From contig NZ_CP085135.1 in assembly GCF_020616515.1 (NCBI RefSeq), forward strand, positions 1,674,001-1,738,000: a stretch of DNA of 64,000 nucleotides, in the 5' to 3' direction. Under the pieces are notes generated by a model that did no database searches, was not told the origin of the DNA, and saw nothing but the letters and a program-made list of their open reading frames with translations. The stretch is from Mesorhizobium sp. PAMC28654. GTDB taxonomy: Bacteria > Pseudomonadota > Alphaproteobacteria > Rhizobiales > Rhizobiaceae. Position numbers and translations under genes: made by a program. This document shows, piece by piece, positions 10,950-27,895 of this stretch; position 1 is the stretch's first letter; every line of letters begins with the position of its first letter.

Positions 10950-11751
10950 CATCCAGTCCGGCAATCAGGCCCGCCATGACGTCGAGCAGTTCACCACTAC
11001 CAGCAGCGAGTGCGCCGTGGCGAATGATTTCCCCGGCATAAAGGGGCGCGCGGCCATGCCGGTCGAGCAATTGACCGCCGGCTTCGCGCAGGATGAGATC
11101 GGCGGCGGCAATGTCCCAGTCATGCGCGTTCGTCTTGACGAAGGTCGCATCCAGCGCGCCGTCGGCGATCATCGCCAACCGGTAGGCAAGCGACGGACTA
11201 TAGGGAGCCCGCTGCAACCGGGACCGCCAGTCAGCCGGCATCAAGTCGACCATCGGCTTGGGCCCGGCAATCTCCGCCATCTGTCCCGGCTTGCGGACCG
11301 TGATCCGCCGGCCGTTCTTGAAGGCGCCTTCGCCGGGCAGCGCCCAGTAGGTTTCGCCCATTGCGGGGCATTCCAGCACGCCGCAAAGAGTGCGGCCGTT
11401 CTCGACCACCGCGACGCTGACGCACCATGTTCGCTGGCCTTCGAGGAAGCCTCGCGTGCCATCTATGGGATCGACGACGAAGGTACGGCGCGCGGACAGC
11501 CGGGCCGGATTGTCGGCGGTTTCCTCCGACAGCCAGCCATAATCGGGGCGAGCCGCCAGCAACGCGTCGCGCAGATAAGCATCAGCGGCATGGTCGGCTT
11601 CGCTGACCGGCGAAGTGCCGCCCTTCATCCATACTTGCGGGCTGTTACCGAAGTAACGCATGGCGATAACGCCAGCCTCGCGGGCGGCATCGCGCAGCAG
11701 CGACAGGTCCTGGTGAGCCCCAGTTGAAATGACCGGGTCAAGCTCCTGCAA
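10942..11751 (-). CDS. cysQ: Inositol monophosphatase family protein, probable 3'(2'),5'-bisphosphate nucleotidase
   Basis: 269-aa Mg-dependent phosphatase of the inositol monophosphatase superfamily. Metal ligands are visible in SEETAD, DPIDGTRGF (DPxDGT) and WDIAAADLI. Length and the GTRGF variant fit the CysQ branch, which removes 3'-phosphoadenosine 5'-phosphate from sulfate assimilation; an inositol or other sugar phosphate is possible. It starts with TTG at 11751, inside the end of pmbA (14-nt overlap), with GAAGG upstream. It is part of the minus-strand envelope run. Confidence 0.85.
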   Translation of the reverse strand: MQELDPVISTGAHQDLSLLRDAAREAGVIAMRYFGNSPQVWMKGGTSPVSEADHAADAYLRDALLAARPDYGWLSEETADNPARLSARRTFVVDPIDGTRGFLEGQRTWCVSVAVVENGRTLCGVLECPAMGETYWALPGEGAFKNGRRITVRKPGQMAEIAGPKPMVDLMPADWRSRLQRAPYSPSLAYRLAMIADGALDATFVKTNAHDWDIAAADLILREAGGQLLDRHGRAPLYAGEIIRHGALAAGSGELLDVMAGLIAGLDEP

Positions 11752-13081
11752 GGGTCATGCCTTCGATCAGGAGTGTGGGGGCCGCGGTACCAAAATTTCG
11801 GTCGAGATCGCTCGCCGGAACCATGTTGAGGAACATCGTCTTCAGGTTGGAAGCGATCGTCACTTCGGCGACCGGATAGGAAAGCTGGCCGTTCTCGATC
11901 CAGAAACCTGAAGCCCCACGGCTGTACTCGCCAGTCACCATGTCGACACCCTGGCCGAACACTTCCGTGACGTAGAAGCCGGTCTTGAGCGAGGCGATCA
12001 GGTCTTCCGGCGACCGTTCGCCGGGTTCGATGGCAAGGTTGGTCGACGAGGGCGAGACGGATGAGCCGCCGCGCGACCCACGGCCGTTGGTGACCAGACC
12101 AAGCTCGCGCGCGGCCGAGGTGGACAGGAACCAATGGTTGAGCACGCCCTTCTCGACCATGAACAGTTTTTCGCCCTCGATGCCTTCGCCATCGAACGGA
12201 CGCGAGGCCTGGCCCCGGCGCCGGAGCGGCTCGTCGGTAACCGTTATCGATGAAGCCGCCACCTGCTTGCCCATCATGTCGCGCAGGAAGCTGGTCTTGC
12301 GCGCCACAGAAGCGCCGTTGATCGCGCCGGCCAGATGTCCCGCGATGCCGCGCGCGACGCGCGGATCGAACACCACGTTGACCGGGCCGGTCGCCGCCTT
12401 GCGCGCGCCGATCCGCCGCACCGCGCGTTCACCGGCCTTGCGGCCGATATCCCGGGGCGCATCGAGATCGGAAAAATGCTGGCGCGAGGAAAATTCATAG
12501 TCGCGCTCCATGCCTGTGCCCTCGCCCGCGATGACGCTGGCCGAGCGCGAAAAGCGCGAGGCGACATAGTGGCCAAGAAAGCCATGCGAGGTGGCGAGAA
12601 CCAGTCCGCCAAGACCGGCGCTGGCGCCGCTGCCCGCGGAATTGGTAATGCCCTTGACGGCAAGGGCGGCTTCTTCCGCGGCAAGCGCGTCGTCCTTCAG
12701 CCGGTCGGCCGAGACTTCGGTGGCGTCGAACAGGTCGAGATCAGGTGTCCGTTTCGCGAGCAGCGATGGATCAGCCAAGCCCTGATAGGGATCCTCTGGC
12801 GACACCTTCGCCATCGCCACGGCACGTTCAGCCAGCGCCTTGGGGTCGGACGCAGCGGTCGCGGATACGCTCGCCACCCTGTTGCCAACGAAGACACGCA
12901 GCGAAACATCCTCGCTCTCGGACGATTCCGTACCCTCGACCTTGCCGAGGCGCACCGATACGCCGGTCGAGCGGCCGCGCACCGCCACCGCGTCGGCGGC
13001 GTCGGCGCCAGCCCGCTTGGCAGCCTCGACCAGGGCCGCGACGCGGTCGGTCAATTTTGCTGCGTCGAGCGTGTTTGTCAT
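11738..13081 (-). CDS. pmbA: TldD/PmbA family protein (PmbA/TldE)
   Basis: 447-aa PmbA homologue. PmbA (TldE) forms a heterodimeric zinc protease with TldD that processes peptides such as microcins and the CcdA antitoxin. This subunit lacks the HExxxH zinc motif, as expected for PmbA rather than TldD. The segments GRSTGVSVRLGKVEGTESSES near the N-terminus and NGRGSRGGSSVSPSSTNL near the C-terminus are family signatures. The start at 13081 (MTNTLDAAKL) has AGGATT upstream; longer readings run into a cysteine- and arginine-rich stretch unlike the family. It heads the run pmbA-cysQ-DUF4170-DUF374-waaA-lpxK. No tldD is in the window. Confidence 0.92.
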   Translation of the reverse strand: MTNTLDAAKLTDRVAALVEAAKRAGADAADAVAVRGRSTGVSVRLGKVEGTESSESEDVSLRVFVGNRVASVSATAASDPKALAERAVAMAKVSPEDPYQGLADPSLLAKRTPDLDLFDATEVSADRLKDDALAAEEAALAVKGITNSAGSGASAGLGGLVLATSHGFLGHYVASRFSRSASVIAGEGTGMERDYEFSSRQHFSDLDAPRDIGRKAGERAVRRIGARKAATGPVNVVFDPRVARGIAGHLAGAINGASVARKTSFLRDMMGKQVAASSITVTDEPLRRRGQASRPFDGEGIEGEKLFMVEKGVLNHWFLSTSAARELGLVTNGRGSRGGSSVSPSSTNLAIEPGERSPEDLIASLKTGFYVTEVFGQGVDMVTGEYSRGASGFWIENGQLSYPVAEVTIASNLKTMFLNMVPASDLDRNFGTAAPTLLIEGMTLAGA

Positions 13082-13253
13082 GTTGATAATCCTGCTTTTG
13101 GGCCTGCTTCGGGTGCGACCCGCTGCTGCACCATCTATTGTTCCGGTCCGGCTTGTGCAATGGGAGAAGCGGTAATCAAGATGCTTCGCTCCACCGACCG
13201 CGACTGGGCCCAAGTATCGCCGCCCTGTTGACAGACTGCTCGGAGCATACGCC

Positions 13254-13670
13254 TTGACGCCCTTCCACCTCGCCTTTCCGGTCCGCAATCTCGATGAAAC
13301 GCGCGCTTTCTATGGCGACATACTTGGATGCGCGATCGGCCGCTCATCAGCGACCTGGGTCGATTTCGATCTTTTCGGCCACCAGATGTCGGCGCATCTG
13401 CGACCGCAGGCATCCCAGGCCGCCAGCGACGGCAAGGTCGACGGCGTGACGGTCCCGATCCCGCATTTCGGCGCGGTGCTGCTGATGGACGAATGGGAGC
13501 GCCTCGCCGCGCGGCTCGAAGCACTTGATCATATCGACTGGCTGGAACGGCCAATGGTCCGTTTCAAGGGTGAGCCCGGCGAACAGGCGACGCTGTTCAT
13601 CCGCGACCCTTCCGGCAATGCACTGGAATTCAAGGGTTTTCGCTCGCTCGATCAGATTTTCGCGCACTGA
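13254..13670 (+). CDS. VOC family protein (glyoxalase/bleomycin resistance fold)
   Basis: 138-aa vicinal-oxygen-chelate protein: FHLAFPVRNLDETRAFYGDILG at the N-terminus and DPSGNALEFKGF at the C-terminus, with His and Glu ligands (the initial H and the E of LEFK). The start is TTG at 13254 with GGAG nearby. It is convergent with epmA. The substrate is unknown. Several relatives are annotated as dioxygenases, but nothing here decides between them. Confidence 0.85.
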   Translation: MTPFHLAFPVRNLDETRAFYGDILGCAIGRSSATWVDFDLFGHQMSAHLRPQASQAASDGKVDGVTVPIPHFGAVLLMDEWERLAARLEALDHIDWLERPMVRFKGEPGEQATLFIRDPSGNALEFKGFRSLDQIFAH

Positions 13671-14875: not shown

Positions 14876-15445
14876 GTGGTGAAGGTTATCGCCAGTTCGC
14901 TCCGCAAAGGCAATGTCGTCGACAGGGATGGCAAGCTTTATGTGATCCTCTTTGCCGAAAACATCCACCCAGGCAAGGGCACGCCGGTAACGCAGCTGGA
15001 TATGCGCCGCATTGGCGATGGGGTGAAGGTTTCGGAACGCTACCGCACCACCGAGCAGGTGGAGCGTGCCTATGTGGAAGAGCGCGAGCACACGTTCCTC
15101 TACCACGACAGCGAAGGCTTTCATTTCATGAACCCGGAAAGCTACGATCAGGTGGCGGTGTCGGAAGCCGTGGTCGGCGACATGGCGCCCTACCTCCTGG
15201 AAGGCATGGCCGTGCAGGTGTCACAGTTCAATGGCATTGCCATTTCATTGGTGCTGCCGCAGCGCGCTACCTTCGAAGTGGTGGAAACCGAGCCGACGAC
15301 CAAGGGACAGACGGCTTCGTCGTCCTACAAGCCGGCTGTGCTTTCCAACGGCGTGCGCACGCTGGTGCCGCCGCACATCGCTCCCGGCACCCGCGTGGTG
15401 GTGATGACCGCCGACGGCGCCTATGTCGAGCGCGCGAAGGACTGA
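14876..15445 (+). CDS. efp: Elongation factor P
   Basis: 189-aa EF-P with KOW-like N-terminal domain and two OB domains. It relieves ribosome stalling at proline runs. The tip loop [13 protein letters not shown] carries Lys34, the site modified by EpmA, whose gene is divergent at 13714-14760. The start is GTG at 14876, followed by a second GTG at 14879; AGGA lies about 10 nt upstream. The stop codon is inside an 8-bp hairpin (15435-15454). Confidence 0.97.
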
Positions 15446-15484: not shown

Positions 15485-15595
15485 ACTGACCTGAGGTGAC
15501 GAAATCGCCTCATTGCCGGCTGAAGCGTTTTCAATTGCTCTTGATGGCCAAAGCCCCTCAACTCGCCGCCTGACATCAACCTCGGCGGGGCAGGC

Positions 15596-17116
15596 ATGCG
15601 AACGACGGCCAGAGTACGCAGGGTGCGCGACGGCAGGCTGGAATTTTCCAAGGAGTGGTTGCAGCTCCGCAATCCGCATGCGCCCATCGAGGTGCTGACC
15701 GAGGAACAGGTCGAAACCATCCACGACGCATCGATGTCGGTGCTCGAAGATGTCGGCATGCGCATCCAGGACGAAGAGACGCGCAACTTCTTCGCCAGCG
15801 CCGGCTTCTCCGTCGACCATGCCACCGAACTGGTGGTCTTCGATCGCGAGGGGCTGCTGGCACTGGTTGCCAAGGCGCCACCGGTCGTCACGGTGCGTGG
15901 CCGCGATCCGGCCAAAAAGCTTTTCATGGGCCAAGGCCAGGTCGCCTTCACTGCGGTCAGCGGCCCGCCCTTCGTTTCCGATCTCGATCATGGTCGTCGC
16001 GCCGGCACGTTTAGGGATCAGGAAAATTTCCTGAAGATGACGCATATGACAGACGTGCTGCAGATCGAAGGCGGCACCAGTGTCGAAGCCCAGGACCTGC
16101 CGGCCGACACACGCTATCTCGACTTCTACCTTGCCTGCTGCAAGATTTCGGACAAGCCGTGGAAACCGCTGACGATCGGCCGCCATCGCGCCCGCGATGC
16201 CATTGAAATGGCCAAGATCTGGTATGGCGAGGACGAGGACAGCCTCGCCGCCAACCCGGTGTTCTTCGTCAATACCAACACCAACACGCCGCTGGTTCTC
16301 GACGGCGAGATCGCGCAAGGCGTCATCGAATATGCGCGGCTGGGTCAGGTCGTCTGCGTGACACCTTTCGGTCTGGCCGGCGCCATGGCACCTGCGACGG
16401 TTGCCGGTGCGCTGGTCATGCAGAATGCCGAAACGCTCGCGTGTTGCGCGCTGACCCAGATCATCCGCCCGGGTTGCCCCTACATCTATGGCGGCTTCAT
16501 CTGCAACGCTGACATGAAGACGGGGTCGCCGGCTTTCGGCACGCCCGAATTCACGCTCGGCGCGCAGGCCACTGGCCAGATGGCGCGCCGCTACGGCCTG
16601 CCGTGGCGCTCGTCCAACGTGAACGCCTCGAATGCTCCCGACGCACAGGCGGCGTACGAATCCATGATGTCGCTGTGGGGCGCGCTGACCGGCCATGCCA
16701 GCGTGTTCAACCATGGCGCTGGCTGGCTGGAGGGCGGCCTGGTTGGTTCCTACGAGAAGTTCATCCTCGACATCGAGATGGTCCGCATGATGTGCGCCTG
16801 GATGACGCCGCTCACGGTCAACGCCGACACGATCGGACTGGATTCGATCAAGGAAGTCGGCCCCGGCGGCCACTTCTTCGGCACCGCTCATACGCTCGCC
16901 CGCTACGAAAACGCCTTCTACAAGCCGCTGGTTTCCGACTGGTCGAATTTCGAGAACTGGCAGGACAAGGGCAGCCCCGACGCCGCGCGCCGCGCCAATG
17001 GTATCTGGAAACAGATGGTCAACGAATATGAAGCACCAGCCATCGACCCGGCGGTGATCGAGCAGCTCGAGGACTACGTCGCACGGCGAAAGATCGAGAT
17101 CGAAGCCCTGCGCTAG
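15596..17116 (+). CDS. Trimethylamine methyltransferase (MttB) superfamily protein, non-pyrrolysine type
   Basis: 506-aa MttB-superfamily protein with a TIM-barrel fold. EVLTEEQVETIHDASMSVLEDVGMRIQDEE is the conserved N-terminal segment. NHGAGWLEGGLVGSYEKFILDIEMVRMM and GPGGHFFGTAHTLARYENAFYKPLVSDW near the C-terminus are strong family signatures. The frame has no internal amber codon, so it lacks the pyrrolysine of true trimethylamine methyltransferases, like MtgB (glycine betaine) relatives. These enzymes transfer a methyl group to a corrinoid protein. No corrinoid protein, RamA or methyl-tetrahydrofolate transferase gene is next to it; instead a FAD/GcvT oxidase follows after 49 bp, probably co-transcribed. 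The natural substrate is presumably an N-methylated compound. Confidence 0.9.
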   Translation: MRTTARVRRVRDGRLEFSKEWLQLRNPHAPIEVLTEEQVETIHDASMSVLEDVGMRIQDEETRNFFASAGFSVDHATELVVFDREGLLALVAKAPPVVTVRGRDPAKKLFMGQGQVAFTAVSGPPFVSDLDHGRRAGTFRDQENFLKMTHMTDVLQIEGGTSVEAQDLPADTRYLDFYLACCKISDKPWKPLTIGRHRARDAIEMAKIWYGEDEDSLAANPVFFVNTNTNTPLVLDGEIAQGVIEYARLGQVVCVTPFGLAGAMAPATVAGALVMQNAETLACCALTQIIRPGCPYIYGGFICNADMKTGSPAFGTPEFTLGAQATGQMARRYGLPWRSSNVNASNAPDAQAAYESMMSLWGALTGHASVFNHGAGWLEGGLVGSYEKFILDIEMVRMMCAWMTPLTVNADTIGLDSIKEVGPGGHFFGTAHTLARYENAFYKPLVSDWSNFENWQDKGSPDAARRANGIWKQMVNEYEAPAIDPAVIEQLEDYVARRKIEIEALR

Positions 17117-17165
17117 ATGCTGCTTCAAGCCTTCTGCAAACAACGAAGAATGGAATTCCGACGGA

Positions 17166-19583
17166 ATGGATACACATGCCCGCGTGGTGGTGATCGGCGG
17201 TGGGATAACCGGCTGCGCCATCCTCTATCATCTGGCCAAGAAGGGCTGGAAGGATGTGGTGCTGCTGGAGCGCTCGGAATTGACGTCCGGCTCGACCTGG
17301 CACGCCGCCGGCAATCTGTTCTCGCTGACCAGGCCGTCCAACGCCCAGCGGCTGCAGGTCTATACGATCAATCTCTATCCTGAGATCGAACGGGAAAGCG
17401 GCCAGGCCGTCGGCTATCACCCAACCGGCGGCATGCATCTGGCGGCCTCGAACGACGAGGTCACCACGCTCGCCATTGCCCGGGCGCGCGCACGGCGTAA
17501 TGGCGTCGAGGCGGAGTGGATCAGCTTCGAGGAAGCTAGGGAGCGTGCGCCGGTGCTGGACACCAGGAGCCTCAAGGCGGTGCTTTGGGAACCGATCAAG
17601 GGCCATGTCGATCCGTCCTCGGCGACCAACGCGTTTGCCGCAGCCGCGCGCAAGCTCGGCGCGAAGATCCATCGCCATACGCCGGTGACCGCGACGACGC
17701 CACGCGCCGACGGTGGTTGGGATGTCGAGACGCCTGGCGGCACCATCCATGCCGAATTCGTCGTCAACGCCGCCGGCCTATGGGCGCGCGAGGTCGGCGC
17801 GCTGGCGGGGATAAAACTGCCACTGCTGCCGGTCGAACATCATTATCTGGTGACCGAGGCGATCCCCGAGATCGAGGCGATGGACCACGAACTGCCGACC
17901 ATCGGGGAAAGTGAAGCCGGCTACTATTCGCGCCAGGAGGGCAAGGGAATCCTGCTCGGCGCTTATGAGAGCACTTGCCATCACTGGGCCTTCGACGGCA
18001 CGCCGCTTGATTTCGGCCATGAGTTGCTGCCCAACGACCTGGCCCGCATGGACCGTAATTTCGAGGTGGCGATGGACCGCATGCCCTGCCTCGGCGAAGC
18101 CGGCATCAAGCGCGTCATCAACGGGCCGATGATCTTCTCGCCCGACCTTGGACCTTTGCTCGGACCACATCCGGAGCTGAAGAATTATTTCTGCGCCTGC
18201 GGCGTGATGAGCGGCTTGAACCAGGGCGCCGGCATCGGCAAGGTGATCTCGGAATGGATCGTCGACGGTGAGCCGGAGATGGACGTGAATTTCTGGGATG
18301 TTGCCCGATTCGGCCGCTGGGCCGGCAAGCGCTTCACCTTCGAGCGAACCAGATATTATTACGAGAACCGCCAGGAACGCCCCTACCCGCATCTAGAATG
18401 CGCTGCCGGCCGGCCGCTGCGAACATTCCCGGCTTACGCCGCGCAGAAGGCCAAGGGCGCTGTCTTCGGCTTCAGCAATGGCTGGGAGCAGCCGCTGTGG
18501 TTTGCGCGGCCTGGCGACGAACAGCGCGACATCTTCGGCTATGCCCGCCAGAATTGGTGGAAGACCGTCGGCGAGGAATGCAAGGCGGTGCGAAGCGCTG
18601 CCGGCCTGTTCGAGATATCGACCTTCGCCAAATACCGGATTTCTGGCGACGCCGCATCCGGCTGGCTGAAATGGGTGCTGGCGGGGCGGATCCCCGAGCG
18701 ATCCGGCGCTGTCTCGCTGTCGCCGATGCTGTCGGAAAAAGGCCGGCTGATCGGCGACCTGACCGTCTCGAGGCTCGATGACGGCAGCTATCTGCTGCTC
18801 GGGGCCGGCACCATGCAGGGCCAGCACATGCGCTGGTTCGATGCGCACAAGACACCAGGTATCACCGTCGAGAACCTGTCCGACAGTTGGAGCGGGCTGA
18901 TGCTGGCTGGGCCGAACGCGCGAAAAATCCTGGCCAGCGTGACGTATGGTGACGTCTCCGGCGAGGCGTTTCCGTTTCTGTCGGTCAGACGCATGGAGAT
19001 CGAGGGAGCGACCGACGCCATTGTGCTCAGGGTCTCTTTTTCGGGCGAGCTCGGCTATGAAATCTACACTCCAGCCATGTATCAGGCTGGCCTCTACGAC
19101 GCACTGTTGCGCGCAGGCGCCGATCTCGGCCTGGTGCCTGCCGGCAGCAGGGCGCTGGCCAGCCTGCGGGTCGAAAAGGCCTTCAAGAGCTGGGGCCTTG
19201 ATCTGGCTCCGGACTACACCGTCATGGAGACGGGCATGGACCGTTTCGTGGACTGGAAACGCTCCGGCTTCATCGGCGAACAGGCGGCGCGCGAGCATAG
19301 CGCTCAAGGCGCCACCGAGCGCTTCGTCACGCTGGCCGTCGACGCTGACGATGCCGATTGCAGCGGCGGCGAGCCGGTATTCCTAGATGATGTCTATGTC
19401 GGCTATGTCACGTCAGGCGCCTATGGCTATGCCGTCAACCAAAGCCTGGCGCTCGGCTATCTCAAATCGCATGTCGCCGAGACCGGCTCAGGCTTCGAGG
19501 TCGAGATCAACGGCAAGCGCCGTGCGGCGTCCATTTCGGATGGGCCACGCTACGACCCGCAAGGGTTGCGCATGCGGATGTGA
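17166..19583 (+). CDS. FAD-dependent oxidoreductase/GcvT fusion (dimethylglycine/sarcosine dehydrogenase-like)
   Basis: 805-aa fusion. An N-terminal DAO-type FAD domain (VVVIGGGITGCAILYHLAKKG dinucleotide motif, then SGSTWHAAGNL) covers about residues 1-375. A linker domain of the FAO_M type follows. The GcvT aminomethyltransferase domain with its C-terminal barrel runs from about 430 to 800 (SWSGLMLAGPNARKIL, SFSGELGYEIY). The layout matches dimethylglycine and sarcosine dehydrogenases, which oxidise N-methyl groups and pass the one-carbon unit to tetrahydrofolate. Placed 49 bp after an MttB-family gene, it probably takes the next demethylation step of the same substrate. The histidine that binds FAD in many relatives is likely the one in GSTWHAAG. 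The exact substrate is not determined. Confidence 0.92.
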   Translation: MDTHARVVVIGGGITGCAILYHLAKKGWKDVVLLERSELTSGSTWHAAGNLFSLTRPSNAQRLQVYTINLYPEIERESGQAVGYHPTGGMHLAASNDEVTTLAIARARARRNGVEAEWISFEEARERAPVLDTRSLKAVLWEPIKGHVDPSSATNAFAAAARKLGAKIHRHTPVTATTPRADGGWDVETPGGTIHAEFVVNAAGLWAREVGALAGIKLPLLPVEHHYLVTEAIPEIEAMDHELPTIGESEAGYYSRQEGKGILLGAYESTCHHWAFDGTPLDFGHELLPNDLARMDRNFEVAMDRMPCLGEAGIKRVINGPMIFSPDLGPLLGPHPELKNYFCACGVMSGLNQGAGIGKVISEWIVDGEPEMDVNFWDVARFGRWAGKRFTFERTRYYYENRQERPYPHLECAAGRPLRTFPAYAAQKAKGAVFGFSNGWEQPLWFARPGDEQRDIFGYARQNWWKTVGEECKAVRSAAGLFEISTFAKYRISGDAASGWLKWVLAGRIPERSGAVSLSPMLSEKGRLIGDLTVSRLDDGSYLLLGAGTMQGQHMRWFDAHKTPGITVENLSDSWSGLMLAGPNARKILASVTYGDVSGEAFPFLSVRRMEIEGATDAIVLRVSFSGELGYEIYTPAMYQAGLYDALLRAGADLGLVPAGSRALASLRVEKAFKSWGLDLAPDYTVMETGMDRFVDWKRSGFIGEQAAREHSAQGATERFVTLAVDADDADCSGGEPVFLDDVYVGYVTSGAYGYAVNQSLALGYLKSHVAETGSGFEVEINGKRRAASISDGPRYDPQGLRMRM

Positions 19584-19712
19584 GGGCGCCCGACCGAGTC
19601 GGGATGGACAGGCTCTGGCCCGACAAAACCCAAATCTTCCACCACCTCGTGAAAACCCCTATAGGTGCCGCGTCGGAGCAGTTGGTTCCGGCGCGTGGAG
19701 GAGCTTCCAAGA

Positions 19713-20612
19713 ATGGCAAGGCGGTTACCTCCCTTTGCCGCGTTGCGGGCCTTCGAGGCGGCCGCGCGGGCTGGCAGCCTGGCCGACGCCGCCGAGGAGT
19801 TGCTGATTTCGAGCTCCGCTGTCAGCCATCAGATCAAATCGCTGGAGACCTTTGTCAGCGCCAAGCTTTTCCTGCGCGAGCAGACGGGGCTGAAACTCAC
19901 GGAGATCGGTGAGAAATATCTTGAGGGGTTGGGCGATGCGCTGGACCGCATCGAGGCGAGCACGCTGTCGGTGATGCAGGACACCAAGAATGGCGGCCTG
20001 ACCATTCATCTTTTCCAGTCACTGGCTCAGATGTGGCTGATCCCGCAACTCGACGATTTCCTGTCATCCAATCCCGAGATCACCGTCAAGCTGATCACCA
20101 AGCCGGACGACATCGAATTCTCAGGTTCCAGCATCGACATCGACATCCGCTACGCCATGACGGCGCCGTCGGAACACATGTGCGAAAAGCTGATCGACGA
20201 GGTCATCGCGCCCGTCGTGTCACCGGACTATCTGCGCCACAATGGTCCGATCGAGACCCCGGAGGATTTGCTCGGGCGGCGGCTCATCGGCTGCGAATAC
20301 GTGCCGCACGAGTGGGATTTCTGGTTCGATAAAATGGGTGTTCGGGGCGCGAACCAGGTGCCGAAGCTGATGTTCGATTCCCGCTCCCACGCCTTGCTTG
20401 CCGCCAGCGAGGGCATGGGGGTGGCGATGAACCGACGGCCCTATGGCGATACCTTGTTGAAACGAGGCTCGCTGATCGCGCCCTTCGCTGAAGAAGTACC
20501 AACCGGCGGCGCCTACTACTTCATCGCGCCCAAACGCTCGGCGGGGCTCGCCCGCGTCAAACATTTCAAGGCTTGGCTGTTGTCGCTCAGCACCGGTCTT
20601 CGCAGCGACTGA
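19713..20612 (+). CDS. LysR-family transcriptional regulator, GcvA-like
   Basis: 299-aa LysR regulator with the GcvA-style opening MARRLPPFAALRAFEAAARAGSLADAAEELLISSSAVSHQ and an effector domain after about residue 90. GGAGGAG is placed just upstream of ATG 19713, which decides the start over a longer frame to 19665. It lies inside the catabolic island, on the same strand as its neighbours, between the FAD/GcvT oxidase and the ThDP enzyme. Being co-directional, it may be an operon member that controls the whole island. Confidence 0.9.
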   Translation: MARRLPPFAALRAFEAAARAGSLADAAEELLISSSAVSHQIKSLETFVSAKLFLREQTGLKLTEIGEKYLEGLGDALDRIEASTLSVMQDTKNGGLTIHLFQSLAQMWLIPQLDDFLSSNPEITVKLITKPDDIEFSGSSIDIDIRYAMTAPSEHMCEKLIDEVIAPVVSPDYLRHNGPIETPEDLLGRRLIGCEYVPHEWDFWFDKMGVRGANQVPKLMFDSRSHALLAASEGMGVAMNRRPYGDTLLKRGSLIAPFAEEVPTGGAYYFIAPKRSAGLARVKHFKAWLLSLSTGLRSD

Positions 20613-20716
20613 CGGGCTTTTGCCGCCGGCCCGAAATCAATTCATCAGCGCCGAAATTTTATTCGATTGAGACGCTTCGACTGCGCCCCTACGGTCGCAC
20701 GAAAAGCGGGGCGATC

Positions 20717-22357
20717 TTGCGAAACGGCGGTCAGATTCTCATAAGCGCACTGTTGCAAAACAGCTGCAAGGCCGTCTTCGGCGTGCCCGGTGAAAGCTAT
20801 CTGACCGCGCTCGACGCGCTGTGGGAGCAGGCCAACGTCATCCGCTATATCACCTGTCGGCAAGAAGGCGGCGCCTGCTTCATGGCGGCGGCCTACGCCG
20901 ATGCAACCGGCGACCCCGGCGTCTGTTTCGTCACCCGCGGTGCGGGCGCGATGAACGCCGCGATCGGCCTGCATACGGCCTATCAGGGCTCGACGCCGCT
21001 CATCCTACTGATTGGTCAGATTGCATCCGCGCATCGTGATCGGGAAGCCTTCCAGGAACTCGACTATCGCCGCGTTTTCGGCCCGATGAGCAAATGGGTG
21101 GCGGAAATCGATCGCCCGTCGCGCATTCCCGAATATGTCAACCGGGCGTGGCGAACCGCGGTCTCCGGCCGCCCCGGCCCGGTGGTGCTGGTGTTGCCGG
21201 AAGATGTGCTCAAGGCGGAAAGCGACACGCCCGACCTGAAACCGGCAATGGTAACACCTGTCGCACCATTGGCCTCCGACATGGCGGGGATCGAAGCCAT
21301 GCTGGCGCGCTCGAAGCGGCCATTGCTACTGCTTGGCGGCGCCAACTGGACGCCAGCCGGCCACGACGCCATCATCCAGGCTTCGGAAAGTCTCGGGCTT
21401 CCCGTCGCCGTCGGCTTCCGCCGCCAAGGCCTGTTTCCCAACGACCATCCGAACTATATCGGCAATCTTGGTTTCGGCGGCGCGCCGATGCCCAACGACT
21501 ATTGCCGCGAGGCCGATCTCATCCTTGCCGTCGGCAGCCGTCTCGGTGACGGCACGACGCTGAAGTTCTCACTGATCCCGGCGCCGACCCCACACTGCCC
21601 ATTGGTGCATGTGCATCCGGGCGCGGAGGAGCTTGGCCGGCTTTATCAAGCCGACCTTCTGGTACAGGCCGATCCCAGCGCGTTTGCAATCGCCCTTGCC
21701 GGTTTGGCCTCGCCCGGTCGCAATCCAAGACGCGCCGCGGTTTGCGCCTCGGCACGCCGGCGCTACCTTGCCATGCTCGACCTTGCAGCGCAGCCGGGCC
21801 CTGTCGATATGGGCGTGGTGATGCGCTTCCTCAGCCAGCGGCTGCCGGCTGATTCCTTCATGACCACCGGTGCCGGCAATGCCTCCGACTGGCCCAACAT
21901 CCATTTCCGCTATCGGCGGTTTCGCGGCGCGCTGGCGCCGGTCTGCGGCGCCATGGGTTTTGGCGTTCCCGCGGCGGTTGCCGCAAAGATCGCCGACCCC
22001 GACGCGCCCGCCATCTACATCGGTGGCGACGGTGATTTCCTTATGAACGGCCAGGAATTCGCGACCGCCGTCCAGTACGGCCTCGACCCGATCTTCATCG
22101 TCGTCGACAACCAATCCTATGGCACCATCCGGATGCACCAGGAACGCGCTTTTCCGGGCCGCAATTCCGGCACCGGTCTTACCAATCCCGACTTCGCCAC
22201 CGTGGCGGTCGGCTACGGCGGCCATGGCGAGACGGTGGAGACGACCGACGATTTCGCGCCGGCCTTCGAACGCGCGCTGGCGAGCGGCAAGGCCGCGGTG
22301 ATCCACGTCAAGGTTGGCGTGGAGCATCTTGGGCCCAACATGACCGTATCGCCTTGA
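20717..22357 (+). CDS. Thiamine diphosphate-dependent enzyme (acetolactate synthase-like)
   Basis: 546-aa ThDP enzyme with the three standard domains. The catalytic Glu is in YITCRQEGGACFMAAAYA near the N-terminus. The central domain carries PLLLLGGANW. The metal/ThDP motif is GGDGDFLMNGQEFATAVQYG followed by DNQSYG in the C-terminal domain. The start is placed at TTG 20717 (RNGGQILISALL) because the conserved fold begins there and GCGGGG lies upstream; the frame is open to 20573, but that part overlaps the end of the LysR gene and looks non-coding. It could be a decarboxylase or carboligase of a 2-oxo acid. The substrate is unknown and no small regulatory subunit is present. Confidence 0.9.
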   Translation: MRNGGQILISALLQNSCKAVFGVPGESYLTALDALWEQANVIRYITCRQEGGACFMAAAYADATGDPGVCFVTRGAGAMNAAIGLHTAYQGSTPLILLIGQIASAHRDREAFQELDYRRVFGPMSKWVAEIDRPSRIPEYVNRAWRTAVSGRPGPVVLVLPEDVLKAESDTPDLKPAMVTPVAPLASDMAGIEAMLARSKRPLLLLGGANWTPAGHDAIIQASESLGLPVAVGFRRQGLFPNDHPNYIGNLGFGGAPMPNDYCREADLILAVGSRLGDGTTLKFSLIPAPTPHCPLVHVHPGAEELGRLYQADLLVQADPSAFAIALAGLASPGRNPRRAAVCASARRRYLAMLDLAAQPGPVDMGVVMRFLSQRLPADSFMTTGAGNASDWPNIHFRYRRFRGALAPVCGAMGFGVPAAVAAKIADPDAPAIYIGGDGDFLMNGQEFATAVQYGLDPIFIVVDNQSYGTIRMHQERAFPGRNSGTGLTNPDFATVAVGYGGHGETVETTDDFAPAFERALASGKAAVIHVKVGVEHLGPNMTVSP

Positions 22358-22416
22358 CTGACCGACGAACGCCCAAACGGCGTCTGTCCTATTGAGATTG
22401 CAGGGAGGTTTTCGAG

Positions 22417-23775
22417 ATGATCCGGTTTTCCGACTTTGCCCACAGCCTGACCTATGACGCTATTCCCGAAGAGGTGCGCTCCATCCTCAGACGCAGTTTT
22501 GCCGACATTCTGGGCGTGGCGGCGGTCGGTTCGACGACTGAGATGTCATCGATCACCAGGAAGATCGCAGACCGGCTGTGGCGTTCGTCGCCCGAAATCG
22601 GCGCTGCGCGGATGATCTTCGACGGGCGTCCAGTCAGCCCGGCCGGGGCCGCGTTCGCCGGCGCCTTCACCATCGACTCCATCGACGGACACGACTCCAC
22701 CAGCCCTTGCAAAGGCCACGCGGGTTCGGCGGTGTTTCCCGCACTGCTCGGCATCGCCGACTCGCTGCGCGCCACCGGGCAACCGCTTTCCGGCAAGGAG
22801 TTCATGGTCGCGCTGGCCGTCGCCTACGAGATCTCCTATCGCGCCGGCCTGACCTTGCATGGCACCGTGCCGGACTACCACACCTCCGGAGCCTGGACCG
22901 CGGTCGGTGTCGCCGCCGGTGTTTCGCGGCTGCTGGGGCTGAGCCAGGAACAGACGCGCCATGCCGCGGGCATTGCCGAATATCACGGTCCGCGCAGCCA
23001 GATGATGCGTTGCATCGATTTCCCGACCATGCTGCGTGACGGCGTTGGCTGGGGCGCGCCATCGGGGGTGATGGCCGCCTATATGGCCGAGCTCGGCTTC
23101 ACCGGCGCGCCTGCGATCACTGCCGAGGGGGACGCGGCCGAACCCTGGTGGCGCGATCTCGGACAGGCCTGGCGCATCGTCGAGGATACCTCCTACAAAC
23201 CCTATCCTGTCTGCCGCTGGGCACATCCATCGATCGATGCCGTCCGCGACCTGATGCGTGACAACAAGCTTTCCAGCAAGGATGTCACGCGGGTGCGCAT
23301 CCAGACCTTCCACTATGCGGTGCGGCTTGCCGGCCACAATCCGAAGACGCTAGACGAGATGACCTATTCGATCGCGTTTCCTGTGGCGACGATGATCGTG
23401 CGGGGCAAGATCGGACCGCTTGAACTTCTGCCAGAGGTCCTGGATGACGCGGAGATCCGCCGCATTTCCAACGCCACGGAGCTGGTCGAGACCGAGCACT
23501 ACACCCGCATCAGCGTCGGCAAGCGCTGGGCCGACGTTACCCTCTATCTCAAGGACGGGCGCGAGATCATGTCGGAGCCGCGCACGCCGAAAGGCGACCG
23601 CGACAATCCGATGAACGCGGACGAGTTTCATCAGAAATATGCCACCTTCACCGACGGCCTCATCAACAAGGCGCGCGCCGACGAGATGGAGGCGATGGCG
23701 CTCTCGTTCGACGCGCTGGACAGCAACGGGTTTAGCCGGCTTATCGATCTGGCGGTCGCGCCACTCGACCGCTGA
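22417..23775 (+). CDS. MmgE/PrpD family protein
   Basis: 452-aa protein of the MmgE/PrpD family (2-methylcitrate dehydratase, cis-aconitate decarboxylase, iminodisuccinate epimerase). Family segments seen are RRSFADILGVAAVG, DSIDGHDSTSPCKGHAGSAVFPALL and YKPYPVCRWAHPSIDAV. GGGAGG precedes ATG 22417. There is no other methylcitrate-cycle gene nearby, so propionate metabolism is unlikely. It is more likely a dehydratase or decarboxylase specific to this catabolic island. It lies 59 bp after the ThDP gene on the same strand. Confidence 0.9.
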   Translation: MIRFSDFAHSLTYDAIPEEVRSILRRSFADILGVAAVGSTTEMSSITRKIADRLWRSSPEIGAARMIFDGRPVSPAGAAFAGAFTIDSIDGHDSTSPCKGHAGSAVFPALLGIADSLRATGQPLSGKEFMVALAVAYEISYRAGLTLHGTVPDYHTSGAWTAVGVAAGVSRLLGLSQEQTRHAAGIAEYHGPRSQMMRCIDFPTMLRDGVGWGAPSGVMAAYMAELGFTGAPAITAEGDAAEPWWRDLGQAWRIVEDTSYKPYPVCRWAHPSIDAVRDLMRDNKLSSKDVTRVRIQTFHYAVRLAGHNPKTLDEMTYSIAFPVATMIVRGKIGPLELLPEVLDDAEIRRISNATELVETEHYTRISVGKRWADVTLYLKDGREIMSEPRTPKGDRDNPMNADEFHQKYATFTDGLINKARADEMEAMALSFDALDSNGFSRLIDLAVAPLDR

Positions 23776-23940
23776 CACGTGCCACAGCGCAGGCGAATGC
23801 CACCAAGGACATGGACGGAATTATTCTCAGTCAGCGCTGAATCCTTTTCGATCCCATACTTCCGGCCAATGTCTACGATGAGTCAACAGAGCCGCTGAAA
23901 GCAACAGCGCGTCAGGGATTGAAACCGGTGGGAGAACGCA

Positions 23941-25596
23941 ATGACAATGTCCAAGAACGATGGCGGCCGCATTCCCGATTTCGTCGGAGCGATGGCCGAG
24001 AGCGCCAGGGCAGGCGCGGTGGACCGCCGTGAGTTTCTGGCGATCGCCAGCGCTTTCGGCGCGACGACGGCTGCGGCCTACGCAATGCTGGGTCTCGCTG
24101 CACCGACCATGGCGCATGCCGAGGAACCAAAGAAAGGTGGCATTCTGAAAGTCGCGACGAGCGTCAAGGAACAGAAGGATCCACGGACCTACGACTGGTC
24201 CGAAATGGCCAATGTCACCCGCCAGACGCTCGAGCCCCTGGTCAAATACACCAACGAATTCACCTTCAAGCCGATCCTGCTCGAAGGCTGGGACATCAAC
24301 GACGACGCCACGGAATACACGCTGAAAGTGCGGCAGGGCGTCAAATGGAACAATGGCGACGATTTCAGCGCTGACGACGTGGTTTTCAACCTGACGCGCT
24401 GGTGCGACAAGTCAGCCGCGGGCAATTCGATGGCGGCGCGCATGGGCACGTTGATCGATGCCAAGACGGGCAAGCTGCTCGCTGGCGCGATCACCAAGGT
24501 CGATGACTTCACCATCAAGCTGAAGCTGCCGGCCTCCGACATCTCGATCATCGCCGGCTTCTCCGATTATCCGGCTCTGATCGTGCATCGCGATTACGAG
24601 AAGATGGGCAGCAATTTCGTCGCCCATCCGATCGGCACCGGACCGTTCGAGCTGGTCTCCTACGATGTCGGCTCGAAGGTCGTGCTGAAGCGCCGCGTCA
24701 ACGGCAAATGGTGGGGCGGCGAAGCCCATCTCGACGGCATCGAATTCATCGACTACGGCACCGAAGCCAACGCGATGATCAGCGCGTTCGAATCCGGCGA
24801 GGTCAACACCAACTACGAGACCACGGCTGATTATGTCGGCATCCTCGACAAGATGGGACTGGTCAAGCACGAGGTGGTCACCGCCAACACCATCGTGGCG
24901 CGCACCAACGTCAACAACAAGCCTTATGACGATCAGAAAGTGCGCCAGGCCATCCAGCTTGCCGTCGACAATGCGACGGTTCTCAAGCTCGGCTATGGCG
25001 ATGCCGGCACGCTGGGCGAAAATCATCACGTCTGCGCCATCCATCCCGAATATGCCGCGCTGCCGAAAGTGTCCCGCGACATCGCCAAGGCCAAGGCATT
25101 GATGACCGAGGCTGGTCATATGGACTTCGAACATGAATTGATCGGGCTCGACCAGGACTGGCACAAGAACACCGCCGATTCGATCGCGGCCCAGATCCGC
25201 GAGGCCGGCTTCAAGGTCAAGCGCACCGTCCTGCCGGGCTCCACCTTCTGGAACGACTGGACGAAATATCCGTTCTCGATGACCAACTGGAATATGCGCC
25301 CGCTCGGTGTGCAGGTCATCGCGCTGGCCTATCGCACCGGCGAATCGTGGAACGAATCCGCCTATTCCAACAAGGAACTCGATGAGAAGATCGGCAAGGC
25401 GCTGACCGTCGCCGATGTCGACAAGCGCCGCGACCTCATGGTCGATATCGAGAAGACCCTTCAAGAGTCCGGGGTCATCATCCAGCCCTATTGGCGCAAG
25501 ATCTACAATCACTCGACGAAGTCGGTGAAGAACTATGGCATCCACCCGACCTTCGAACAGAATTTCGAAAATGTCTGGCTCGACGAAAACGCCTGA
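23941..25596 (+). CDS. ABC transporter substrate-binding protein, family 5 (peptide/nickel/opine type), Tat-exported
   Basis: 551-aa SBP_bac_5 protein. A twin-arginine motif ([12 protein letters not shown]) at about residue 29 is followed by a hydrophobic stretch and a likely cleavage after AHA, so it is exported folded. LRQ-like family segments are seen as [26 protein letters not shown] and [27 protein letters not shown] lies just upstream of ATG 23941. The permease and ATPase genes expected next to it are missing: the next gene is an unrelated patatin on the other strand. It must either use permeases encoded elsewhere or be an orphan. The ligand presumably is the substrate of the upstream enzymes. 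Confidence 0.93.
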
Positions 25597-25689: not shown

Positions 25690-26553
25690 TCAACCGGCGA
25701 CGCGCTTGCCGCGCTTGCCCTTGCCGGCACGCGCCTCCACCGCCTTTTCGATCTGCCGCTTCAGCTCGTCCTTGATATCCGCCGTCTCACTCATCAGGGC
25801 GTCGACCTTCATGAAGTCGAGCACACGGTATTTCGAGACCGCCGGGCGGATCAATATGTCCGGCTGACGCTGCTTCAGCTTGTTGGCGATGATCGACTGC
25901 ATCAGCAGTTGCGTGGCGCCGAACATCAGGTCGACCGACGTCGGCTGCTTGTGCTCGACCTCCTCGGGCGCGCCGACCACATCGACTGCGATGATGATGT
26001 CAGCGTCGTTCTCGATCAGGTCGAAAGGCACGGGATTGTAGATGCCGCCGTCGATCAGCAGCCTTCCGTCGCGCATCACCGGGCGAAACACCGCCGGTAT
26101 CGCGGCCGAGGCGGCAAGCGCTGAATGCAGATCGCCGTCGCTGATCACAGCGAGCTTGTGGCCGAAATAGTCCGTCGCCGTCACCTTCAGCGGGATTTTC
26201 AGCTCGGCAAAGGTTTCGGGAACCGCTTCGGGCAGGAAGGCCTTGAGAATGCGCTCGACATTGAACTGGCTGACCCTCAGCCCGCCCTGCATCGCCTCGG
26301 CGAAGGTTTCCGGCCGAGCCCGCCACATGCGGCTGGCCACCTCGGTGCGCCGGCCAAGGATCGAGCGGGCATAATCGTGGATCTCCTTGCCGGTCATGCC
26401 CGACGCCATGCCGGCGCCCATGATGGCGCCGATCGACGAACCGGCTATCGCCACCGGTTTTATCCCCAGTTCGTCCAAAGCCTCGATGACGTGGATATGC
26501 GCCAGTCCGCGCGCGCCGCCGCCGCCGAAGGCGATGCCGAAACTAGCCTCCAT
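25690..26553 (-). CDS. Patatin-like phospholipase
   Basis: 287-aa RssA/YchK-type patatin. It shows the oxyanion loop GIAFGGGGARGLAH, the nucleophile elbow GSSIG and the catalytic Asp in DGGIYNP. It hydrolyses acyl esters of phospholipids or similar lipids. The C-terminal tail is basic (GKGKRGKRVAG). ATG 26553 is preferred because GAGG lies 6 nt upstream; a TTG at 26559 is the alternative. The start overlaps the last codons of the upstream M16 gene by 11 nt, so the two are probably in one operon. Confidence 0.92.
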   Translation of the reverse strand: MEASFGIAFGGGGARGLAHIHVIEALDELGIKPVAIAGSSIGAIMGAGMASGMTGKEIHDYARSILGRRTEVASRMWRARPETFAEAMQGGLRVSQFNVERILKAFLPEAVPETFAELKIPLKVTATDYFGHKLAVISDGDLHSALAASAAIPAVFRPVMRDGRLLIDGGIYNPVPFDLIENDADIIIAVDVVGAPEEVEHKQPTSVDLMFGATQLLMQSIIANKLKQRQPDILIRPAVSKYRVLDFMKVDALMSETADIKDELKRQIEKAVEARAGKGKRGKRVAG

Positions 26554-27895
26554 TGGCAACCTCGCCGAGCTTCGGCCCGACGACCATGATAGCCGGTTCC
26601 GTGGAGAGCAGCTTCTTGGCCGCGGCCTTGACCTGATCGAGCGTCACACCGTTGATGTAGGCCGTCCGCCGCTGCATGTAATCGATGCCGAGCTTGTCAA
26701 CCTGCAGCTCAACCAGGGTCGCGGCGATGGCGCTGGAGGAATTCAGATTGTTGATGGCGTAGGCGCCGATCATGTATTTCTTGGTCGCCGCGAGTTCCTC
26801 CTCGGTCGGACCTTCCTCAGCCATGCGCCTCACAACATCGCGGACGATGCCTAGTGTCTGCGCCGCCCGGTCCGAGCGCGTCGCGGTGGTGATGATCAGC
26901 GCGTTGGCGTGTTCCTGGTTGATCAGCGACGAGTTGACGCTATAGGCCAGACCGCGCTTTTCGCGCACCTCGCTGAACAGGCGCGAGGTGAAGGTGCCAC
27001 CGCCGAGGATTTCGTTCATCAAGGCAGCCGCGAAGAAATCCGGAGCATCCCGCTTCACTCCCGGATAGGCGAGTTGCAGCGAGGTCTGCGGCAGCGCGTA
27101 GTTGACCTCGACATGCTGCGCCAGCTTTGGCTCGATATCGGCCACCGGCTTGAGCAGCTGCTTTTCCGGCAGGTCACCGAACAGCAGGTCGAGTTTTTGC
27201 TTTAGCGTTTCGGCGTCGATGGCGCCGACCACCGCGACACGCAGGCCGCCGCGGGCGAAATTCGCCTTGTGGAAGGCGCGCAAATCATCCTGGGTGATCG
27301 TGGCGATGCTCTGCCTGGTGCCTTGATCCGATCGCGCATAGGGATGGTTGCCATAGATGGCTTCGGCCCATTTGGTCTGGGCAATCGTGTCAGGGTCATT
27401 TTCACCGGCGATGATGCCAGACAGGATCTGCGAGCGGATGCGGTCGATCGGCGCCTGGTCGAAACGCGGTTGCGTGACCGCCAGCCGCAAGAGCTCGAAT
27501 GCCTCGTCCTTGCGCTCGGCCAGCATGCGCATCGACCCGTACGTGCCGTCACGCCGCTCGTCGAAACTCATTTCCGCGCCGACGTCGTCAAGGCGGATCT
27601 GGAAAGTCTCGCTGTCGAGATCGCCGGCCCCCTCGTCGAACAGTCCGGTCATCAGATTGGCAAGCCCCTCCTTGCCCGGCGGATCCTGCGTCGAGCCACC
27701 GTCGAAGACGAAGCGTATGGCGATGATCGGCACCGAATAATCTTCCACAAGCCAGGCATCGACGCCCTTCGACGACTTCACATCCTGGATGGCCACGCTG
27801 GCGCGCGCGGTGACCGCCGGCAAGATCAGGAACAACACCGACAGGAACAGGACCGCGATGTGCAGACGGAAGCGAATGGTGCCGAGCCGCGTCAT
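26543..27895 (-). CDS. M16 family metallopeptidase, catalytically inactive subunit type
   Basis: 450-aa M16 protein with an N-terminal hydrophobic export or anchor segment (LHIAVLFLSVLFLILPAVTARA). Both M16 halves are recognisable (GLANLMTGLFDEGAGDLDSETFQIRL and SEVREKRGLAYSVNSSL), but the HxxEH zinc motif is replaced by LFDEGA-type residues, so it cannot bind zinc in the usual way. It follows the active paralogue at 27899 directly, and the two probably form a heterodimer in the periplasm. RGLAYS near the C-terminus is the usual Arg-Tyr substrate-binding pair. Confidence 0.92.
   Translation of the reverse strand: MTRLGTIRFRLHIAVLFLSVLFLILPAVTARASVAIQDVKSSKGVDAWLVEDYSVPIIAIRFVFDGGSTQDPPGKEGLANLMTGLFDEGAGDLDSETFQIRLDDVGAEMSFDERRDGTYGSMRMLAERKDEAFELLRLAVTQPRFDQAPIDRIRSQILSGIIAGENDPDTIAQTKWAEAIYGNHPYARSDQGTRQSIATITQDDLRAFHKANFARGGLRVAVVGAIDAETLKQKLDLLFGDLPEKQLLKPVADIEPKLAQHVEVNYALPQTSLQLAYPGVKRDAPDFFAAALMNEILGGGTFTSRLFSEVREKRGLAYSVNSSLINQEHANALIITTATRSDRAAQTLGIVRDVVRRMAEEGPTEEELAATKKYMIGAYAINNLNSSSAIAATLVELQVDKLGIDYMQRRTAYINGVTLDQVKAAAKKLLSTEPAIMVVGPKLGEVANGG

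Follow-up and report, generated by a model that had tools for sequence, protein, structure and literature searches.

A probable catabolic island for a quaternary ammonium compound in Mesorhizobium sp. PAMC28654, probably mobile and putatively under joint control

The demethylation of quaternary amines by B12-dependent enzymes has long been tied to anaerobes. An aerobic system, MtgBCDE, was described in Ruegeria in 2025, and according to that paper up to seven pfam06253 genes are often found per marine genome and may serve other methylated compounds (PMC12478193). The locus considered here belongs to Mesorhizobium sp. PAMC28654 (NCBI RefSeq assembly GCF_020616515.1, contig NZ_CP085135.1) and lies in a stretch of 64,000 nucleotides, positions 1,674,001 to 1,738,000 of the forward strand, which is called the window below. 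It occupies window positions 15596-25596 with six co-directional plus-strand genes, recognized by Pfam searches, for an MttB-superfamily methyltransferase, a DAO-GcvT fusion, a LysR-type regulator, a thiamine diphosphate (ThDP)-dependent enzyme, an MmgE/PrpD-family enzyme, and a solute-binding protein (SBP). With a probability of roughly 0.68, these genes form a catabolic island that is under joint control, is probably mobile, and serves the use of a quaternary ammonium compound. An amino-acid betaine is the likeliest class of substrate, and the probability of any single substrate is much lower. The gene families, the behavior of the island as a unit, its three shared sites, the hub genes elsewhere in the genome, and the recurrent pairing of MttB with DAO-GcvT were computed directly.

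Families of the six proteins

The first gene (15596..17116) encodes a protein of 506 residues in which the MTTB domain is full-length (residues 8-502, 599 bits, E 5e-180; Pfam). The frame stays open for 506 codons without an in-frame stop, which places the protein among the non-pyrrolysine members of the MttB superfamily. Its nearest solved relative is 4yyc, a putative trimethylamine methyltransferase (E 5e-102), followed by 2qne and the glycine betaine methyltransferase 9yce (E 1e-93), and its score lies below the TIGR02369 equivalog cut-off for trimethylamine methyltransferase sensu stricto (309 vs 525 bits). The second gene (17166..19583) encodes 805 residues carrying DAO, FAO_M, GCV_T, and GCV_T_C on a single chain (Pfam), the arrangement of the dimethylglycine dehydrogenase type. 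Its best PDB match is the dimethylglycine dehydrogenase 5l46 (E 2e-185, residues 4-795), a chain taken here to be the human enzyme. The WHAAG segment at residues 45-49 aligns with 5l46, and its histidine is presumably the residue that links the flavin.

The LysR-type regulator (19713..20612; HTH_1 and LysR_substrate) is GcvA-like yet stays under the GcvA model cut-off (265 vs 288 bits), and its start is probably the ATG at 19713 rather than the GTG at 19665. In the case of the ThDP enzyme (20717..22357; TPP_enzyme N, M, and C), the PRK08199 subfamily cut-off is passed (733.7 vs 539 bits; NCBIfam) and that of the acetolactate synthase model TIGR00118 is failed (311.5 vs 538 bits). This gene would most likely start with the TTG at 20717, rather than at the open reading frame start at 20573, because the Pfam match begins at residue 51 of the reading frame and a TTG or GTG start is kept in five other genomes. 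The MmgE/PrpD protein (22417..23775; MmgE_PrpD N and C) falls far below the equivalog model of 2-methylcitrate dehydratase PrpD, NF042438 (25.7 vs 950 bits), and is remote from any named member; its nearest solved relatives, Bacillus subtilis IRG1, IDS-epimerase, and cis-aconitate decarboxylase (7bra, 2hp3, and 12vw), are distant, with a best E of 8e-18. The SBP (23941..25596; SBP_bac_5, family 5) carries a twin-arginine motif, RREF, at residue 29 and fails the cut-off for the dipeptide-binding protein DppA (117 vs 1005 bits; NCBIfam). With the inferred starts, the gaps between consecutive genes are 49, 129, 104, 59, and 165 nt. An initial annotation of this DNA had listed six co-directional genes of these families with short gaps, and the searches bear this out for every family.

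Conservation, flanks, and putative operators

All six genes occur in identical order in six Mesorhizobium genomes, namely the source genome and the carriers L001, L127, L003, L004, and L002, and in several genomic contexts. In the first protein search with MttB, four loci from Mesorhizobium were 94-97% identical, and three distant ones 47-49%. L003 carries one extra gene, for a class I/II aminotransferase, between the DAO-GcvT and LysR genes. In the case of L002, both the LysR and the ThDP gene are broken up over frames, the SBP is 73% identical, and a FAD-linked oxidase gene is added. The dN/dS values of all six genes are 0.023-0.120 against L127, L001, L003, and L004, and 0.051-0.189 against L002. 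All six genes are under purifying selection, and the island behaves as a unit. Homologues of the six stand together in other genomes, with full sets in other Mesorhizobium and partial sets elsewhere; their absence would have spoken against the proposal of the initial annotation.

The island is probably mobile. The left edge of the occupied site is an elongation factor P gene (14876..15445, plus strand; Pfam), which lies 150 bp from the MttB gene in the window and ~0.15 kb from it in L127; in L001, the distance is 1.9 kb, with other frames between. The right edge is a patatin-like gene (25690..26559, minus strand; Pfam), which follows the SBP gene in the window and in L001, and the L127 sequence ends before that point. 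Neither flank gene was found within the stretches examined of L002, L003, and L004. Eight more stretches at the elongation factor P gene are without the island there, and one of them, G105, has it elsewhere; in six of the eight, the patatin gene lies at a distance of 0.1 to 6.6 kb (the shortest, ~0.12 kb, in G401), and in the other two it was not seen. In GC fraction, the island (0.625) equals the remainder of the window (0.624), and no direct repeat across its ends is longer than 8 nt. An Rfam search gave no match, and two sigma-70-type promoters were found vs 2.1 expected.

When the upstream regions of the carriers are aligned, conserved blocks appear before the MttB, ThDP, and SBP genes, and from these blocks the pattern GAAWT-N3-YTCA-N17-TTCRAT was written. 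The pattern has three perfect matches in the 6.70-Mb genome, all on the plus strand of the island: putative operator 1 (15501..15535), 60 nt upstream of the MttB gene; putative operator 2 (20633..20667), 49 nt upstream of the ThDP gene; and putative operator 3 (23818..23852), 88 nt upstream of the SBP gene. Allowing one mismatch adds a single site in the genome, outside the island, and the pattern read backwards has no match in the 6.70 Mb. A scan of the window with up to two mismatches returns the same three sites alone, as many as were found in 1/100 shuffles. Perfect copies of the pattern precede MttB and SBP in 6/6 carriers and ThDP in 4/6, the exceptions being L004 (two mismatches) and L002 (no match), and 2.2 Mb of other loci hold 0 perfect matches and three with one mismatch, one of which is the extra site of the genome scan. 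The motif was derived from the same three sites that it later found, which counts against these scans, and for this reason the three upstream regions were also compared directly; 16/35 columns are identical, vs 10 to 14 in 300 dinucleotide shuffles. These sequence signs suggest that the island is jointly controlled and that the island LysR may bind the three putative operators. A lack of co-regulation, which the initial annotation had named as a refutation, is thus not indicated by the sequence.

Partners of MttB and the corrinoid hub

The frequency of the MttB and DAO-GcvT pairing was evaluated on 58 MTTB genes of the order, sampled by hand from a score-cut list, and on 20 control stretches. 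A GcvT, DAO, or OYE gene lies within 3 kb of 32/58 MTTB genes vs 1/20 control stretches. In the source genome, a strong GcvT match lies no more than 8 kb from six of the nine MTTB loci, and 21 of 20000 circular shifts did as well. Furthermore, distances among MttB proteins correlate with those among the neighboring DAO-GcvT proteins (Mantel r 0.647, 0/5000 permutations, 25 pairs), a correlation that may partly be due to shared species history. On plasmids, the four best of 1222 DAO-GcvT records carry four of the five best MttB matches, 0.9-1.4 kb away; the remaining one, from Mesorhizobium sp. B2-1-8, adjoins another FAD-dependent oxidoreductase and has no DAO-GcvT match. On pSymA of Sinorhizobium meliloti 1021 (L161), MttB and DAO-GcvT stand with LysR, M24 creatinase-like, AraC-type, and ABC transporter genes.

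The methyl-accepting partners of MttB lie elsewhere in the genome. Pfam profile searches gave nine MTTB matches, two B12-binding_2 matches, three pterin-binding matches, and one RACo match. One B12-binding_2 match shares a 1268-residue frame, putatively MetH, with a pterin-binding match; the other is in a 253-residue protein. This corrinoid protein belongs to a hub at ~119-131 kb, together with DUF1638, a pterin-binding methyltransferase (one of the three pterin-binding matches), MTHFR, DUF5981, and the sole RACo-type reactivase; the same region includes an MTTB gene and a number of unrelated ones. Of the hub proteins, the pterin enzyme passes the PRK07535 cut-off (394 vs 259 bits), the corrinoid protein scores below the two cut-offs for MtgC (209 vs 370 and 173 vs 310 bits), and the reactivase scores below that of AcsV (388 vs 800 bits). 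The genome therefore contains a corrinoid protein, a pterin-binding methyltransferase, and a reactivase, which is the gene content of an MtgBCD-type system. All genome-wide B12-binding_2 and RACo matches fall outside the window, which was not itself searched as a whole for MttC, reactivase, permease, and ATPase; on these placements, a corrinoid partner near the island was rejected.

The initial annotation had left two options, a corrinoid partner elsewhere or an MttB-like protein that works differently. The first is borne out by the hub, 1.56 Mb from the island MTTB gene, and the second is not favored. A protein that bypasses the hub, for example as a direct transferase, would agree with the corrinoid-protein genes found within 3 kb of 2/58 sampled MTTB genes and with the 4/77 MTTB genomes that showed no RACo. 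However, RACo is present in 73/77 of these genomes, the four others have completeness values of 56, 61, and 88%, and of 99% with a weak MttB match only, and the island protein matches solved MttB-family methyltransferases near its full length, so that such a bypass is very improbable. A survey of 199 genomes from the order showed MTTB in 77 of them and RACo in 81 (both in 73, MTTB only in 4, RACo only in 8, and neither in 114; Fisher p 9e-40, not corrected for relatedness). Exactly one RACo is present in 55 of the 58 genomes with at least two MTTB matches (scored up to 7); of the other three genomes, one carries four and two lack it. A single hub may be common to the nine MttB paralogues. Such a shared hub is known or foreseen, because PMC12478193 describes the system together with multiple pfam06253 genes; the MTTB and RACo counts for this order are new from the present analysis.

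The same genome-wide counts bear on ordinary glycine betaine catabolism, in which the island would hold a redundant MtgB and a dimethylglycine dehydrogenase with hitchhiking genes. The closeness of the two proteins to 9yce and to dimethylglycine dehydrogenase speaks for it, against which stand the eight other MttB matches (one of them in the hub) and 20 other GcvT matches of the genome. Neither ThDP nor MmgE/PrpD enzymes are known to take part in the breakdown of glycine betaine, and this explanation is improbable.

The remaining genes of the island also recur beside demethylases. At L035, in another family of the order, the MmgE/PrpD gene directly adjoins MttB (MttB 67%, MmgE/PrpD 40%). The two genes adjoin in 11/11 plasmid records among the best matches for both, which are not independent because all are Leisingera. 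In the Rhodobacterales plasmids of Leisingera M527 (L149) and Ruegeria SCSIO 43209 (L159), MttB, MmgE/PrpD, DAO-GcvT (45%), and LysR lie in one cluster, with MmgE/PrpD next to MttB at L149 and 5.9 kb from it at L159; an aminotransferase is annotated in the Leisingera cluster. On a plasmid of Mesorhizobium mediterraneum (L156), LysR, DAO-GcvT (47%), and MmgE/PrpD are consecutive. Upstream of these three genes, at L156:2728-4105, an MttB lies in pieces over several frames and is absent from the plasmid gene table. At L157 and L163, MmgE/PrpD stands with Rieske-type alpha subunit and betaine transporter genes, and five of the seven inspected MmgE/PrpD plasmid loci fit a demethylase link. In the source genome, a paralogue locus (L020) holds MttB, sarcosine-oxidase-type genes, and MmgE/PrpD (43%) within ~10 kb. 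As for the SBP, a 69% relative adjoins MttB and DAO-GcvT on a Mesorhizobium plasmid (L162), and source-genome paralogues at 65 and 68% stand at two other MttB loci, the 65% one at L022 beside permease and ATPase genes. A general rule that MmgE/PrpD lies near MttB was rejected, since it lies within 8 kb at 1/58 sampled loci. A literature search gave no MmgE among the matches listed. The initial annotation had treated the mix of families as unique, which is too narrow, given that MttB with DAO/GcvT is common in the order and that four of the families are combined at L149 and L159.

These neighborhoods also bear on a division of the island into two halves under one regulator, in which MttB and DAO-GcvT demethylate one compound while the ThDP enzyme, MmgE/PrpD, and SBP take up and degrade another acid. 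The separate motif sites before MttB, ThDP, and SBP would suit such a division, as would the sole ThDP relative inspected (L164), which stands among hydantoinase, aminotransferase, and aldehyde dehydrogenase genes with no MttB nearby. Nevertheless, MmgE/PrpD lies near MttB, DAO-GcvT, or both at L035, L149, L156, and L159, and the SBP relative adjoins both at L162; partners from both halves therefore recur together, and the division is unlikely.

Several observations weigh against a single catabolic island for one betaine, including the ThDP neighborhood at L164. The MttB orthologue (E limit 1e-180) is rare, being found in 5/146 genomes of the genus, in 4/397 of the order, two of them outside the genus, and in 1/385 of the class, which is the source genome itself. 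The full six-gene set was seen in Mesorhizobium alone; of the two loci outside the genus, L035 retains MmgE/PrpD as the sole partner of MttB, and in the stretch at L036 the sole partner is a DAO gene of opposite orientation. In the sample, 26/58 MTTB genes are without a GcvT, DAO, or OYE gene within 3 kb, and the contrast with the control stretches weakens with distance (38/58 vs 3/20 at 6 kb and 39/58 vs 4/20 at 8 kb). At the MmgE/PrpD loci L155 and L158, no demethylase is annotated in the vicinity, and neither MttB nor DAO-GcvT gave a match. In addition, the six genes of the source strain include no permease or deaminase gene.

Other MttB loci showed further arrangements. Beside the MttB paralogue of L022, DAO matches in one frame and GcvT in another (10983-13402), instead of the usual single chain. 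At L023 (2158-4797), a DUF1989-GcvT fusion of 880 aa lies upstream of an MttB paralogue, from which it is separated by an amino-acid permease and an OYE-type enzyme. In a Hyphomicrobiales metagenome-assembled genome, a cytochrome P450 gene (L007:11569-12810) directly follows a distant MttB relative. A second MttB locus (L018, 1672577-1674076), across the left window edge and ~15 kb from the island, also has the 68% SBP paralogue, an enolase-superfamily gene, and an FMN/pyridine-nucleotide oxidoreductase. Its candidacy as a proline- or hydroxyproline-betaine locus is weakened, as the enolase-superfamily protein scores 88 vs 500 bits with the cis-3-hydroxyproline dehydratase model; 2pmq and 4h2h, which are taken here to be betaine epimerases, rank low among its matches. 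In Mesorhizobium alhagi, an mttB gene and fhs are reported to be strongly upregulated under salt, and their mutants showed no role in salt resistance (PMC4302635).

Proposed route and related systems

For the catabolic island favored here, the reactions and their order are inferred as follows. The SBP would capture the quaternary ammonium compound, although the island itself encodes no permease. MttB would then transfer a first N-methyl group to the corrinoid, in its Co(I) state, of the single MtgC-like hub protein, from which the MtgD-like hub enzyme would hand it to tetrahydrofolate. Because a quaternary nitrogen lacks a lone pair, a flavoenzyme cannot oxidize it until a methyl group is lost by transfer, which is why MttB is placed first. 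Subsequently, DAO-GcvT would oxidize the remaining N-methyl groups to methylene groups on folate, and the freed amino acid would be deaminated by an aminotransferase to yield a 2-oxo acid for the ThDP enzyme, while MmgE/PrpD would dehydrate or epimerize the side chain. LysR would control the three promoters. The proposal of the initial annotation, an island that demethylates and then degrades an N-methylated compound, is probably right; the substrate and the reactions of MmgE/PrpD and the ThDP enzyme are conjectural at most.

A more specific account is tentative and, taken as a whole, rather doubtful. It comprises an undescribed amino-acid betaine route in which MmgE/PrpD performs a new step, either on the betaine or on the product of its demethylation; a coupling of this MmgE/PrpD clade to corrinoid, flavin, and Rieske demethylases in different bacteria; and one B12 hub serving nine substrate-specific MttB modules in a single soil bacterium. 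Together with the counts across the order, the results suggest that in many Hyphomicrobiales several MttB modules are plugged into one B12 hub, and that many of these modules bring an oxidative follow-up enzyme of their own. If true, soil betaine turnover becomes testable gene by gene, and the private three-site motif of the island offers an easy inducer screen for the substrate.

Compared with known systems, the island enzyme shares the MmgE/PrpD family with IRG1, IDS-epimerase, and cis-aconitate decarboxylase, but is too distant from them for its reaction to be read off. The DAO-GcvT protein resembles dimethylglycine dehydrogenase (5l46 and 4pab) in an alignment over nearly the whole chain and in the kept WHAAG segment; unlike these enzymes, it is a bacterial paralogue beside an MttB. 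MtyB and MtcB of Eubacterium limosum are likewise MttB-superfamily proteins for different quaternary amines, whereas in the island an oxidative follow-up enzyme adjoins MttB, in contrast to the situation in that anaerobic acetogen. The MtgBCDE system of Ruegeria pomeroyi, also located in S. meliloti, is similar in its pfam06253 methyltransferase, its separate corrinoid protein and pterin-binding methyltransferase, its cobalamin reactivation, and its later demethylation steps (PMC12478193). The present MttB differs in being an island paralogue with regulator, DAO-GcvT, ThDP, MmgE/PrpD, and SBP genes of its own.

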